Below are positions 2,983 to 8,278 of a stretch of DNA of 64,000 nt, piece by piece. Position numbers and translations under genes: made by a program. Within the stretch, counting starts at the first letter, position 1. Every line of letters starts with the position of its first letter. The notes beneath the pieces were generated by a model, which saw nothing but the letters and a program-made list of their open reading frames with translations, was not told where the DNA came from and ran no database searches. This DNA comes from Novosphingobium sp. FSW06-99. GTDB taxonomy: Bacteria > Pseudomonadota > Alphaproteobacteria > Sphingomonadales > Sphingomonadaceae. The DNA lies in contig NZ_KQ954255.1 in assembly GCF_001519065.1 (NCBI RefSeq), positions 6,782 through 70,781 of the forward strand. Reading direction: 5' to 3'.

Positions 2983-4440
2983 ATGATCAATCCCCGTCCG
3001 CTCGTGCTGTTCAACAGCCTGACTCGCCAGCCGGAGCCGTTCAGCCCCGTTCACCCGGGCGAGGCGCGCGTCTATTCGTGCGGGCCGACGGTCTACAACT
3101 ATCCGCATATCGGCAATATGCGCGCCTATGTGTTTGCCGATGTGCTGGGACGCACGCTGTCATACAAGGGCTATGCGCTGACTCACGTGATCAACATCAC
3201 CGATGTCGGCCATCTGACCGACGATGCCGATGCGGGCGAAGACAAGATGGAAGCCGCCGCCGCCGCGCGTGCGCAATCGATCTGGGATATCGCGCGCCAC
3301 TATACCGAGGCCTATTGGGCCGATATTGCCGCGCTGAATATCCGCGCGCCCGCGCAATGGTCGATTGCCACGCATTATGTGCCGCAGATGATCGAATTCG
3401 CCAAGACGATTGCCGAGCGGCACTGCTATGAATTGCCCACCGGGCTCTATTTCGATGTCGGTTCGGTGGCCGATTACGGGCGGCTGGCGCGCGCGCAGAC
3501 GGACGAGGGCGAGGGGCGCATCGAGGAAGTGGAGGGCAAGCGCCACGCCGCCGACTTTGCCATCTGGCGCAAGACCCCGCCGGGCGAAACGCGGCAGATG
3601 GAATGGGATTCGCCGTGGGGCCGGGGCGCGCCCGGCTGGCACCTGGAATGTTCTGTGATGAGCGGCGCGCTGCTTGGTTTTCCGTTCGACATTCACACCG
3701 GCGGGATCGACCATCGCGAAATCCACCATCCCAACGAAATCGCGCAGAATCAGGCGTTTTGCTGCACCGGCAGCCTGACCGACCCGGCCAATTCGGGCGC
3801 GCGGGTGTGGATGCACAACAATTTCCTGGTCGAACGGTCGGGCAAGATGTCGAAAAGTTCGGGCGAGTTCCTGCGCCTGCAACTGCTGATTGATCGCGGC
3901 TATCACCCGCTGGCCTATCGCCTGATGTGCCTGCAGGCGCATTATCGCAGCGAACTGGAGTTTTCATGGGAAGGGCTGGGCGCGGCGTTGACCCGGCTGA
4001 AACGGCTGGTTCTGGCGATCGCGCAGTTGCGCGATCGCGCGGGCGAGGCGGATGCGACGCCGGGGCCCAAGTTTGCCGATCTGCTCGACCGCTTCGATGC
4101 AGCGATCAGCGAAGACCTCAACACCCCGCTGGCGCTGACCGTGCTGGATGAGATCGTCGCGCTGAAAAAGGTCGATCCGGCCGAAAAGCTGGGCGCGATT
4201 GCCAACGTGGACAGCGTGCTCGGCCTCAATCTGCTGACGCTGAGCCGTACCGAATTGCGCATCCGGCCCATGGCCGCGGTGATCGATGAACAGACCATCG
4301 GCGAAGTGTTGGACGACCGCCGCGCCGCGCGCGCCGACAAGGATTTCGCCCGATCCGACGCCCTGCGCGATGAATTGGCCGCCGCGGGGGTCGAGGTGAT
4401 GGATGGCGACCCGCTCGGCTGGGACTGGCGCGTGCCATAA
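2983..4440 (+). CDS. cysS: Cysteinyl-tRNA synthetase
   Basis: Class I aminoacyl-tRNA synthetase that charges tRNA-Cys in the cytoplasm. The 485-residue protein has the zinc-ligand cysteine in SCGPTVYN (C33), the HIGH-box variant HIGN (42-45) and the KMSKS loop (about 287-291) followed by SSGEF. Zinc ligands further on appear in the WHLECS and GGIDHREIHHPNE segments. The C-terminal region ends with the usual anticodon-binding DALR-like helices. Length is slightly above the common 460-470. The ATG at 2983 has AAGG about 8 bases upstream. It is a single-gene unit, preceded by the large palindrome and followed by a short hairpin shared with the convergent secretin gene. Confidence 0.97.
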   Translation: MINPRPLVLFNSLTRQPEPFSPVHPGEARVYSCGPTVYNYPHIGNMRAYVFADVLGRTLSYKGYALTHVINITDVGHLTDDADAGEDKMEAAAAARAQSIWDIARHYTEAYWADIAALNIRAPAQWSIATHYVPQMIEFAKTIAERHCYELPTGLYFDVGSVADYGRLARAQTDEGEGRIEEVEGKRHAADFAIWRKTPPGETRQMEWDSPWGRGAPGWHLECSVMSGALLGFPFDIHTGGIDHREIHHPNEIAQNQAFCCTGSLTDPANSGARVWMHNNFLVERSGKMSKSSGEFLRLQLLIDRGYHPLAYRLMCLQAHYRSELEFSWEGLGAALTRLKRLVLAIAQLRDRAGEADATPGPKFADLLDRFDAAISEDLNTPLALTVLDEIVALKKVDPAEKLGAIANVDSVLGLNLLTLSRTELRIRPMAAVIDEQTIGEVLDDRRAARADKDFARSDALRDELAAAGVEVMDGDPLGWDWRVP

Positions 4441-4461
4441 TCCTCTCCGGCACGGGGAGGA
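4441..4461. repeat. Small palindrome between convergent genes (TCCTC-CC...GGGGAGGA type)
   Basis: Bases 4441-4448 pair with 4454-4461 (one T-G wobble), filling the whole gap between the cysS stop and the secretin stop. Related TCCTCCCC/GGGGAGGA palindromes occur at 10319-10342, 27980-28000 and 32371-32398, each at gene 3' ends. It may act as a bidirectional terminator or transcript-end stabiliser. Confidence 0.6.
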
Positions 4462-5946
4462 TCAGGGCCGTTGGGCGTGCAGGATGTGCGGGGTGACGAC
4501 GATATAGAGGTCGGTATTCTGCCGCGTGTGCGATGTGTTGCGGAACGCCTGGCCCAACAGCGGAATATCGCCCAACAGCGGGATCTTGCTGCTGTTGTCG
4601 AGCACCGTGTCCTGCATCAGCCCGCCGATCACAAAGCTTTCACCGTCACGCACCATTGCCACGGTCTCTGCCTCGCGCTGCGAAATGGTGGGATAGCCTT
4701 GGGCATAGCCGGTCACGCTCGACACCACGCAGAACACGTGGCTGGTCACCACGCCGTCGTCGGCCACGCGGGGCGCGATCTGCAAGGTCACGCCGACATT
4801 CACATATTGCACTTGTTGCGACACGCCGTTGACCCCCGACAGCGTGATCGAGGTCAGGATCGGCAGCGCGTCGCCGGTGATGATCTTGGCCGTGCTGCCC
4901 GACAGCGCTGCGATGCGCGGGCGCGACACGATCTTGCCATTGCCTTTGCTGATCTGCGCCGAGATCGCCGCCTGCAACTGCCCGCTGGTCAGCACGCCGC
5001 CGCCGTTGGGGCTGAAGCCCGATGGCACATATTGCCCCGATTGCACCGAAAACAGCGCAATCTGGCCATTGGCATTGGTGAAATCGATGCCCACCGTTTT
5101 TGCCCCGCTTTCGGTCAGTTCGACCAGTTCGGTTTCGAACAGCACGCTGTCGAGCGGCACATCGATGCGCGCGATCTGCGCCTTGAGCCGGGCCAGCCGT
5201 TCGGGTGATCCGTGCAGCCAGATCGCGTTGAGCCGCCGATCGACCGCGATCGTGCCGGTGGCATCGACCGCTTCGCCCAGCGGCTGGTCGGGCGCCTCGG
5301 TAATGCCCGAACTTTGCGCGGCATAAGTCCCGCCGGTGAGGCTGGTCGAGCCAAAGCCGGGTTCGCGCGGGGTGAAATGGTCGTTGGGCTTGATCGTCGC
5401 GCCGGGGCTGATCAGCCCGACCACTTCGCTGACATCGGCGTATTTCAGCATGACCAGTTCGCTGATCGCATCGCTGTCATCGGCGGGGGTGCCATGCATG
5501 GGGGCGGGATCGGCGGCGGGGCGGGCGAGCGGGTGCACGGTGATCTCGATTGCGCTGGGGCTGATCGCGCGGGCCTCGGCGCGGGCCGGGGCCAGGCTGG
5601 CGAAATGGACGATCAGCACGCTGTCGGCCTGTTCAAAGCTGATCGAGCGGACAAATCCGTCTAGCCGCGCCTGCAGGCTGGCGCTGCTGGCGCGCGTGGT
5701 CAGCGCAAAGGCCAGCGCCGCGCGCCCGGCCGTGGCGGGGGTTTCGGCCAGGGCGGCAAAGCCATTGGCACGCGGTGCAAAATCCAGCCGGAACCGCGTT
5801 TCGGTGGCACCTTGCGCGATTGGCTGAATCGCGGTCAGCACGGCAGGGGCAACATCGGTCCGCATGTCGGCGATTTGGGCGCGCACCGGCATGGCCAGCA
5901 TCAGTACGGTGATGCACAGGCCCGCAACGGCGGCACGCAGGGTCAC
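4462..5946 (-). CDS. Secretin (type II/III secretion system outer-membrane channel family), orphan
   Basis: A 494-residue secreted protein with a clear signal peptide (hydrophobic stretch at 8-19, likely cleavage after ARA, residue 23). A secretin N-type short domain (about 165-275, with IAVDRRLNAIW) is followed by the C-terminal secretin homology domain (about 300-490). That domain has the family signature IPLLGDIPLLG at 455-465 and the closing DLYIVVTPHIL. Secretins form large gated outer-membrane rings for type II, type III or type IV pilus systems. There is only one N-domain, and no GspC, E, F or G-like gene is nearby, so the system it serves is not evident. Its start ATG overlaps the stop of the upstream S53 peptidase gene by 4 bases, implying translational coupling. 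It could be a T2SS GspD relative, a CpaC-like secretin or a self-standing channel. Confidence 0.85.
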   Translation of the reverse strand: MTLRAAVAGLCITVLMLAMPVRAQIADMRTDVAPAVLTAIQPIAQGATETRFRLDFAPRANGFAALAETPATAGRAALAFALTTRASSASLQARLDGFVRSISFEQADSVLIVHFASLAPARAEARAISPSAIEITVHPLARPAADPAPMHGTPADDSDAISELVMLKYADVSEVVGLISPGATIKPNDHFTPREPGFGSTSLTGGTYAAQSSGITEAPDQPLGEAVDATGTIAVDRRLNAIWLHGSPERLARLKAQIARIDVPLDSVLFETELVELTESGAKTVGIDFTNANGQIALFSVQSGQYVPSGFSPNGGGVLTSGQLQAAISAQISKGNGKIVSRPRIAALSGSTAKIITGDALPILTSITLSGVNGVSQQVQYVNVGVTLQIAPRVADDGVVTSHVFCVVSSVTGYAQGYPTISQREAETVAMVRDGESFVIGGLMQDTVLDNSSKIPLLGDIPLLGQAFRNTSHTRQNTDLYIVVTPHILHAQRP

Positions 5947-7160
5947 AATCCCGCCTTGCCTTTGGGCGTGCCATTGCCCGATGGCCCGTCATAGCCCGGT
6001 TCCGCCTCGCAGAAATAGGTTGCGCCACAGGCGCCGTCGCTGCCCTTGATCACATCGTAAAGCTCTGCCGTGTGGCGCCACAGCGATCGGGCCCCGGTCG
6101 GCTTTGCGCCATAGGCGGCAAAGATCGCCGCGATCATCGGCGCGCCGACGCTGGTGCCGCCGAACACCATCCAGCCCGAAGTGTTGCCGGGGCCAAGCGG
6201 GCCATACGTCGCAACCCCGGTGCCGGGGGCGGCCACCACTGCAACATCGTTCATCATGCGTTTGGTGCACAAAGGGTCGGTCTGCCACACGGGTTTGTCA
6301 TACATTGCCGAACACCCGCTGCCGGTGCCCGACCACACCGTTTCGGACCAGCCGCGCGCGTTGGTGGCATTGGCCACCAGCCGCGTGCCGCCCACCGCGA
6401 TGGTCAACGGCGCGCTCGCGGGAAATTCGGCGCCATAGCCGCTGTCGCCCGCGCTGGCGGTGACGGCGATCCCCGGCAGGTGATAGGCATGCGCGAACGG
6501 GCGCGTGCCATCTTCGGCACCGCCATAGCTGTTGGAAATCGCGATCGCCCCGCGCGAGGCGGCCATGGCCACGGCGGCGGCCAGATTGGCCTCGCTGTCG
6601 TCATCGGCTTCGACCAGCAGGATGCGGCAGGCCGGGCATATCGCGCTGGCCATTTCGATATCGAGCGCCTGTTCCTGCGACCAGCCGGTGTCGGTAACAG
6701 GCAGGGTGGTGCCCCCGCGCTGGTTGATCCGCGTCAGGCATCCGCTCGCCACGGTACACTGCGGCAGGCCGAATTGCGCGCGATAGGTCGCCAGATCGCT
6801 TTCCGCCCTGGGATAGCCATAGGCATCGACAATCGCGATCACCGTGGCGTTGCTGCCGGTCAACGTCAGGTGATAGGCGTTGCGCAGATCGGCGGGGGAC
6901 AGGCCTGAGGGCGGGCTGGCGCTGACCGCCGCCTTGCCGCCAAGCGGGGTGCCGTCGGCACGCACCACGACATGGGCGTGGCAATGCATGTGCAGGGGCC
7001 GCGCATCGCGCGCGCAGACCGCGCGGTGCAATACCACCCGCCCGCCCGCAATATCCGGCACGATCGGCCCGGGATGTGACACAGCATGTGCCGCACCGGG
7101 CGCGCAGGCCAGCACCAGCATGGCCAGATGCGCCAGCAACGGCTTGATGAATTGCGGCAT
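5943..7160 (-). CDS. S53 family (sedolisin/kumamolisin-type) serine-carboxyl peptidase, no prodomain
   Basis: A 405-residue exported peptidase. Residues 1-26 form a signal peptide ending AHA. The catalytic set of the sedolisin family is complete: Glu163 and Asp167 in SQEQALDIE, oxyanion Asp239 in SAGDSG, and nucleophile Ser337 in GGTSVGAP. The calcium site is seen as DVIKGSDG plus GYDGPSGNGTP near the C-terminus. Family members are usually made with a large pro-kumamolisin domain; here only about 90 residues precede the catalytic fold, so a normal prodomain is absent. Several Cys residues (49, 60, 135, 141, 175, 178 and others) suggest disulfides in the periplasm or outside the cell. The 4-base overlap with the downstream secretin gene suggests a shared function, perhaps export of this enzyme or processing at the channel. 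Confidence 0.9.
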   Translation of the reverse strand: MPQFIKPLLAHLAMLVLACAPGAAHAVSHPGPIVPDIAGGRVVLHRAVCARDARPLHMHCHAHVVVRADGTPLGGKAAVSASPPSGLSPADLRNAYHLTLTGSNATVIAIVDAYGYPRAESDLATYRAQFGLPQCTVASGCLTRINQRGGTTLPVTDTGWSQEQALDIEMASAICPACRILLVEADDDSEANLAAAVAMAASRGAIAISNSYGGAEDGTRPFAHAYHLPGIAVTASAGDSGYGAEFPASAPLTIAVGGTRLVANATNARGWSETVWSGTGSGCSAMYDKPVWQTDPLCTKRMMNDVAVVAAPGTGVATYGPLGPGNTSGWMVFGGTSVGAPMIAAIFAAYGAKPTGARSLWRHTAELYDVIKGSDGACGATYFCEAEPGYDGPSGNGTPKGKAGL

Positions 7161-7255
7161 GGTCCCTCCCTTTGCGCTTGTCGCCCGTCGCGTTACGGGT
7201 AAGCCTTCGCCGACGGGTGCGGGTGGCCAATCACCTCCGAACCCGAGGGAAATCG

Positions 7256-8278
7256 ATGCTCCGCGTCCGAAAACAGATGCTGGCCGGGGCGATGCAGATC
7301 GATCGAAGCGGGAGCAGAAGCGTGGGTGAAGGCTCGGAAAAAACCATTGTCGTGGTCAATGCGCTGGCGGCGCCGCTGTTGGCGGGGCGCGTGCCCGATT
7401 GGGTCGATCTGCGCGGCTTTACCTCGACCGAAGAGCTGATGACGCTGGCACCGCTGGCCGAGATCGGCTGGTTCGATTTGCACAAGCCCGCGCCGATGGC
7501 GGCGGCGATCGCGCTGGCGACGCGGCTGCACTGGCTCAATTCGATCTATGCCGGGGTTGACGCGTTTCCGCTGCCGCTGCTGGCCGAACGTGGTGTCACG
7601 CTGACCAACGGCGCGGGGATCAACGCCATCACCATCGCCGAATATGTGGTGATGGGCATGCTGACGATGGCCAAGGGCTATGCGCAAGTCGTGCGCGCCC
7701 AGGATCGCCAGGAATGGCTGCAGGAATCGCCGGGCAAACAGGAATTGCATGGCAGCCGTGCGCTGATTCTGGGCGGCGGCGAAATCGGCGGGCGCGTGGC
7801 GCGGATGCTGGCCGGGTTTGATGTCGCGGTCACCACCGTGCGTCGGCGCCCTGCCGAAGGCGCCATCGGCCCCGATGCCTGGCGCGCGCGGCTGGCCGAA
7901 TTCGACTGGGTGATCATCGCGGTGCCGGCCACGCCCGAAACGGTGGGCCTGATCGGCGCCGCCGAGATTGCCGCGATGAAGCCGGGCGCCGCGCTGATCA
8001 ATGTCGCGCGTGGCACCGTGATCGATCAGGATGCCCTGATCGCGGCGCTGGACAGCGGGCATCTGGGCGGCGCATTTCTCGATGTGTGCACGCCAGAGCC
8101 GCTACCCCCGGGGCACCCGCTGTGGCGCGTGCCCAATGCCCATATCACCATGCATCTGTCGGGCCGCGCGCAGGACAAGATGTTTGCGCGCGCGGTCGAC
8201 CGGTTCCTGGTCAATCTCGACCGCTGGCATCGCGGCGAACCGGTCGCGCCGCAAGTCGATCTGGTGGCGGGTTACTGA
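7256..8278 (+). CDS. D-isomer specific 2-hydroxyacid dehydrogenase
   Basis: NAD(P)-dependent oxidoreductase of the D-2-hydroxyacid dehydrogenase family. The Rossmann glycine motif is GGGEIGGRVA, followed by the IIAVPATPET segment and NVARGTVIDQDAL. The last contains the active-site Arg, and a Glu lies near CTPEPLPPGHPLW. The usual catalytic His near the C-terminus seems replaced: the segment reads MHLSGRAQD, where HxS(A/G) is still recognisable. The ATG at 7256 has GAGGGA 6 bases upstream. GTG 7322, with GGGAG upstream, would remove 22 residues and start right at the conserved domain, and is a real alternative. An in-frame ATG at 7172 is unlikely. The gene is divergent from the S53 peptidase and convergent with the unknown gene at 8272. 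The substrate is unknown. Confidence 0.82.
   Translation: MLRVRKQMLAGAMQIDRSGSRSVGEGSEKTIVVVNALAAPLLAGRVPDWVDLRGFTSTEELMTLAPLAEIGWFDLHKPAPMAAAIALATRLHWLNSIYAGVDAFPLPLLAERGVTLTNGAGINAITIAEYVVMGMLTMAKGYAQVVRAQDRQEWLQESPGKQELHGSRALILGGGEIGGRVARMLAGFDVAVTTVRRRPAEGAIGPDAWRARLAEFDWVIIAVPATPETVGLIGAAEIAAMKPGAALINVARGTVIDQDALIAALDSGHLGGAFLDVCTPEPLPPGHPLWRVPNAHITMHLSGRAQDKMFARAVDRFLVNLDRWHRGEPVAPQVDLVAGY

Follow-up and report, generated by a model that had tools for sequence, protein, structure and literature searches.

An orphan secretin linked to an S53 peptidase in Novosphingobium: a possible two-gene export module

Secretins that export proteins work, to our knowledge, together with an inner-membrane motor, and the N0 domain of a secretin is its contact to the inner-membrane platform. 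Two departures from the standard arrangement are established: the filamentous phage protein pIV is a secretin that needs no type II secretion system (T2SS), and XqhA of Pseudomonas is an orphan secretin that serves an unlinked T2SS. Among sedolisins (family S53), a PF09286 prodomain is usual, but not required. The parts of the locus described here are of known kinds; among the matches listed in open-access literature, we found neither the combination of a stand-alone secretin with an enzyme, nor any study of this secretin family, nor one of an orphan secretin adjacent to a peptidase gene.

The window (the whole stretch of DNA analysed, 64,000 nucleotides from Novosphingobium sp. FSW06-99) contains such a pair, encoded on the minus strand. 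The original prediction that the peptidase and secretin genes overlap by 4 bases was correct in coordinates, strand, and overlap. The features are as follows, the signal peptides being putative assignments made by eye.

5943-7160, minus strand: S53 (sedolisin-type) peptidase, 405 aa (kumamolisin alignment and catalytic set; putative signal peptide)
4462-5946, minus strand: orphan secretin, 494 aa, GTG start (PF00263 and PF03958; putative signal peptide)
5943-5946, minus strand: overlap of 4 bases, shared by the end of the peptidase gene and the beginning of the secretin gene (gene coordinates)
5524-5853, minus strand: part of the secretin gene coding for the AMIN-like domain (fold comparison of the model)
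Secretin residues about 32-141: AMIN-like domain (AlphaFold2 model, fold comparison)
Secretin residues about 157-264: N1-type domain (PF03958 and model fold)
Secretin residues about 265-490: pore domain (PF00263)

The overlap is not a general property of such pairs. In our own gene models, the gap from an S53 gene to its secretin ranges from -4 to 150 bp and is negative in 2 of 22 pairs, and the gap from a secretin to a paired S8 peptidase gene (see below) ranges from 150 to 405 bp. Scans of positions 4300-7500 returned no promoter-like site and a single terminator-like site, which is on the plus strand, shuffled sequences giving more; a PADLOC search gave no match at E <= 0.01.

The pore domain matches PF00263 at E 4.7e-43 (147.2 bits against a cut-off of 27.5), which places the protein in the secretin superfamily, and PF00263 is likewise matched by all 20 aligned members of the orphan-secretin family. 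The NCBIfam cut-offs were not reached for GspD (TIGR02517; 164.7 of 351.35 bits) or PilQ (TIGR02515; 155.7 of 284.35 bits), and the scores for SctC and MshL were also well under theirs. PHROG 1012 matches at E 8.2e-47 over the N1 and pore domains, as it may do for other secretins. The secretin had been described as having one N-domain; a single PF03958 domain is indeed present, but the AMIN-like domain at the N-terminus (about residues 32-141) had been missed. That domain was recognized in an AlphaFold2 model with a mean pLDDT of 64, of which only the N-terminal and N1 domains were used (pLDDT 78 to 92 in blocks between residues 31 and 140; low confidence in the pore part). Residues 157-494 of the model match GspD, InvG, and PilQ, with Z up to 13.7. 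Residues 32-142 match 5h3k (Z 11.4), AmiC 4bin (Z 11.1 over 104 residues), PilQ 3jc8 (Z 10.4), and PilQ B2 4aqz (Z 8.3), in stretches that we take to be AMIN domains, with parts outside 157-493 thinly tested by the fold list. Pfam reported no AMIN domain in 20 family members, so this assignment is one of fold; nor did it report in them an N0 domain or, at E <= 1, PF13629, the N-terminal domain of Tad CpaC.

By PF00263, the genome encodes two secretins, the window secretin and a CpaC on another contig. The latter is part of a Tad cluster that also encodes CpaB, CpaD, and two T2SSF-domain proteins; this CpaC contains PF13629 and matches the window secretin at 38% over 154 residues. The PF00437 matches of this genome are all on other contigs and a PF08334 search of it gave no match; the prediction that the secretin stands without other secretion genes nearby thus holds for PF00263, PF00437, and PF08334, the three families searched. 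We extended the search to 22 genomes, hand-chosen for completeness and spread. A GspE-type ATPase (E <= 1e-130) and GspG were found in the same eight, and neither in the other 14, which include our own; a CpaF-like PF00437 match, judged by position and E-value, was present in all 22. When the orphan secretins were placed in a tree with other secretins, they formed one clade (support 98, or 99 without the outlier L160) and our own CpaC fell in another. This tree comprised 14 of 24 other secretin loci (ten were missed in extraction), two of them on very long branches, plus the CpaC of our genome and 20 of the 80 orphan secretins. Judged by sequence, the window secretin is a member of a discrete family apart from its own genome's Tad secretin. 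As far as these searches reach, it does not group with a secretion system encoded elsewhere in that genome, where of the T2SS markers searched for (GspE and GspG) neither was found.

These results bear on the reading that the secretin is an accessory pore docking to a trans-acting machine, the Tad pilus or a T2SS in hosts that have one, with that machine exporting the partner. In its favor, a CpaF-like match is present in 22 of 22 genomes, and XqhA offers a precedent; however, GspE and GspG are missing from 14 of those genomes, the Tad cluster already has a CpaC of its own, and the orphan family lacks PF13629 in the 20 members scanned and forms its own clade. We consider this reading unlikely. 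Since 14 of the 22 host genomes carry neither marker, we favor the view that any export through the orphan secretin would proceed without T2SS platform, ATPase, or pseudopilus.

The family is discrete: the secretin is matched in 7 of 119 genomes of a family sample (own included) at E <= 1e-120, the next match being at 1e-30; in 16 of 149 genomes of a genus sample (own included) at E <= 1e-50; and in 3 of 385 genomes of a class sample at E <= 1e-80, namely our own genome plus two from a single other family. Plasmids gave no secretin match at E <= 1e-40. A scan of named genomes with two peptide patterns, which may miss distant members, yielded 76 secretin loci (own record excluded), mostly from Sphingomonadales or Caulobacterales, with some titled only Alphaproteobacteria, Proteobacteria, or Pseudomonadota; L160 is an outlier of the family, at 36% identity. 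With our own locus and those of G111, G002, and G211, 80 loci were available, and genes in them were called with a codon-score routine of our own rather than a published program.

In 55 of these 80 loci, the gene next to the secretin on the same strand is for a peptidase: an S53 peptidase upstream of the secretin in 22, an S8 peptidase downstream in 29, and a metzincin-like protein alone in four. (L107, with S8 downstream and a metzincin-like gene upstream, is counted under S8.) The adjacent pair is thus not unique to our genome, and the prediction that it is a real unit is supported, the S53 pair recurring in 16 flank contexts and the S8 pair in 10, where contexts are defined by shared flanking genes of at least 50% identity within the flank available. 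Homologues of the three peptidase types number 57 in the 80 loci and all lie on the secretin strand, 55 of them directly beside the secretin (offset +1 or -1) and the remaining two at offset 2, while the 513 genes lying three or more positions away include none; the peptidase clusters were picked for adjacency, and these counts therefore show positional sharpness, not an unbiased rate. Of the two at offset 2, one is a tandem copy (L112) and the other a gene-calling fault, really at +1 (L134).

The S8 partners (n = 28) keep the catalytic Asp and His in all 28 and the Ser in 27. The metzincin-like proteins match the Pfam M12B/M10 models below cut-off, and five of six contain the motif QExxHxxGxxH, the sixth having no such motif. 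In L107 and L112, the latter with a tandem pair, Gln thereby replaces the first zinc-binding His, and activity is doubtful. In L110 and L117, a gene of an M28-peptidase cluster (Pfam run on the copy in L075), the secretin, and a downstream S8 gene follow one another on one strand.

Partners other than these peptidases were also found beside the secretin:

3 loci, including L131: tandem CrtC lipocalins, two genes
3 loci, including L143 and L148: Phi_1 cluster (Pfam run on two)
3 loci (L138, L139, L147): c80 proteins, family not recognized (HExxE by eye)
2 loci, including L153: c163 proteins
L132: GH11 xylanase (Pfam E 9.1e-66)

Pfam yielded nothing usable for the c80 proteins, and the same held for a PDB search with L138. 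Labels of GH11 (L145) and GH16 (L142) assigned by eye were not confirmed by Pfam or PDB sequence search and were set aside as evidence. In L143, a phospholipase C gene (PF04185; 7599-9707) lies directly downstream of the secretin, with the Phi_1 gene upstream. Eleven of the 80 loci have no recognized partner; in three of these (L088, L152, L157) the locus starts at the edge of a contig, and one (L141) has a PEP-CTERM protein gene upstream. Two metagenome-assembled genomes contain two secretins each, one beside S53 (L113) and one beside the Phi_1 cluster (L144) in the first, and beside S53 (L116) and c163 (L153) in the second; these could be mixed bins.

Partner type tracks the secretin tree, which was built from 79 of the 80 rows (L157 was too short) by a quick method without bootstrap. 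It requires two changes among S8, S53, and metzincin-like partners, or 15 when all labels including 'none' are used, and the S8-type secretins form one clade of 29 rows (support 99). The distances of partners and secretins correlate, with r 0.60 for 21 S53 pairs and r 0.82 for 28 S8 pairs (0 of 999 permutations as high), a result expected from joint inheritance as well as from joint function; one S53 pair (L159, leaving 21 of 22) and one S8 pair with a short model (leaving 28 of 29) were dropped. The clpB site had appeared to hold a fixed secretin with a swapped enzyme; since the tree separates the S53-, metzincin-, and S8-type secretins found there into different lineages, this reading was dropped.

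Neither gene is confined to the pair. S8 genes occur without an adjacent secretin in 19 of the 25 genus genomes carrying such an S8 and in 11 of 14 family genomes, and in 16 such loci that were read (nine genus, seven family) a secretin was found in none; by labels assigned by eye, the clpB site accounts for six of them and the rimP-nusA site for two, both being places where other genomes hold the pair. In an order sample of 396 genomes, nine S53 loci were found in eight genomes, and the secretin adjoins six of the nine and not the other three. In G207, a genome of the genus sample, two S53 genes are present but the secretin is not matched; G256 has kept the secretin with no enzyme neighbor. 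In the genus loci L162-L166 and L168, the S8 gene lies between clpB and an M16-like peptidase gene, with no orphan secretin (labels by eye), and L162 and L163 have an added M28-peptidase-cluster gene at this S8/clpB locus.

That enzymes and secretins each also occur alone is what would be seen if the linkage involved no joint function, the two genes merely traveling together in small islands. We regard this as rather improbable, as order and strand are fixed over 16 (S53) and 10 (S8) contexts and this position is taken repeatedly by several partner families that are unrelated. Still, the occurrence of S8 genes and some S53 genes without a secretin, and of 11 of 80 secretins without a recognized partner, counts against an export function of the pair.

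The window peptidase aligns to kumamolisin at E 4.4e-17, and the predicted full sedolisin set is borne out: E163, D167, D239, and S337 align to the kumamolisin positions that we take to be catalytic, and each of the 21 paired S53 peptidases scored, out of 21, retains all four. (An AlphaFold2 model of the peptidase, with a mean pLDDT of 49, was too poor for use.) Two further S53 genes are of note in their own right. One of the G207 copies (L084, 9058-10263) has Glu at the catalytic Asp167, where the other seven aligned S53 peptidases have Asp, and in G265 (L159/L068) the S53 gene runs across two reading frames, through either sequencing error or decay, next to a secretin gene that is open.

Pfam reported no pro-kumamolisin domain (PF09286) in the window peptidase, as predicted, nor in the four other paired S53 peptidases scanned; as a control, the same library detects PF09286 in another S53 peptidase (L044). 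The original prediction had linked the missing prodomain to the channel, and this link is not supported. The window peptidase has plasmid-encoded relatives in Streptomyces and Streptantibioticus (42-48% identity over 78-92% of its length), with more distant ones in Nonomuraea and Arthrobacter; PF09286 is also absent from three scanned relatives from Streptomyces and Streptantibioticus, which have no outer membrane, and both of two S8 partners scanned contain an I9-like stretch, below cut-off. Because these hosts without an outer membrane share it, absence of the prodomain is a trait of this type of S53 peptidase, and is therefore not what the secretin channel compensates for. One of the Streptomyces plasmid relatives (L201, 706-2880) has carboxypeptidase-regulatory-like domains behind its catalytic part.

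What, then, might the pair do? Judged by eye from their N-termini, the partners appear to be exported. They are alike in this and not in activity, and the linkage holds across contexts, which argues that the secretin would be its partner's exit. We give even odds to the interpretation that the pair is a two-gene module, in which the secretin would be a dedicated outer-membrane export channel for the neighboring enzyme, independent of a T2SS. Guided by its signal peptide, the peptidase would cross the inner membrane and then fold in the periplasm; the secretin would form a gated ring in the outer membrane that lets the neighboring enzyme out of the cell, with its periplasmic part perhaps selecting the cargo. 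The AMIN domains of PilQ bind peptidoglycan in a pulldown (PMC5285504). The AMIN-like domain may similarly hold the secretin to peptidoglycan, in place of an N0 contact to an inner-membrane platform. Neither an energy source nor a shared cargo signal was found.

Close linkage, and an AMIN-like domain that would put the secretin at the peptidoglycan, would also suit a peptidase that is not cargo, acting in the periplasm on the secretin or the cell wall in the assembly, gating, or turnover of the channel. The xylanase, Phi_1, and lipocalin partners, however, share no such activity, and some secretins have no peptidase partner; since non-peptidase partners occur, a role as a general export channel is the better fit, and we consider channel processing improbable. 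The predominance of degradative enzymes among the recognized partners raises another alternative, namely that the enzyme digests polymers outside the cell and the secretin admits the large products. No third gene cluster accompanies the pair over its contexts, so that no linked uptake partner is seen, and uptake would leave the enzyme's own way out of the cell unexplained; we judge it the least probable of these readings.

Returning to export, a more specific and more tentative form, to which we give somewhat less than an even chance, is that a single dedicated, neighbor-encoded enzyme leaves the cell in two steps, (i) by Sec and (ii) through a peptidoglycan-anchored, stand-alone secretin that operates without ATPase, pseudopilus, or inner-membrane platform, and that lineages took up different cargo (S53, S8, metzincin-like, Phi_1, or xylanase). 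The pair may be a very small secretion system, kept in many related bacteria that often lack the usual machinery. With a secretin family that is maintained in the absence of the T2SS motor, and whose lineages stand beside different enzymes, it would become directly testable whether a secretin can gate and export a folded protein by itself, and what selects the cargo. If the reading is true, the pair would offer a minimal export module for engineering.

Among known systems, GspD of the T2SS (XcpQ, EpsD, PulD) shares the N1-type domain and pore with the window secretin, and its job, the export of folded enzymes, is the one also proposed here. The window secretin differs in having one N1-type domain, no reported N0, and an AMIN-like fold in front, in scoring below the GspD cut-off, and in the absence of GspE and GspG from 14 of 22 host genomes. 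PilQ has the same order of parts, with AMIN-like domain followed by N1-type domain and pore; in contrast, the window secretin has one AMIN-like copy and no reported N0, scores below the PilQ cut-off, and belongs to a family for which 14 of 22 host genomes have no full-length PilB/GspE-type ATPase match. The Tad secretin CpaC/RcpA is the only other secretin type in our genome and is similar over the 154 residues noted above (38%), but PF13629, present in our own CpaC, is not reported in 20 orphan-family members, and the two fall in separate clades. On the peptidase side, the S53 enzymes of Streptomyces and Streptantibioticus are prodomain-less like the window peptidase, while their hosts, with one membrane, need no outer-membrane channel. 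Phage pIV is a secretin that works without a T2SS, as proposed here for the window secretin, which has the PHROG 1012 match over its N1 and pore domains that other secretins may also give; the window secretin is set apart from pIV by its AMIN-like fold and its enzyme partner.
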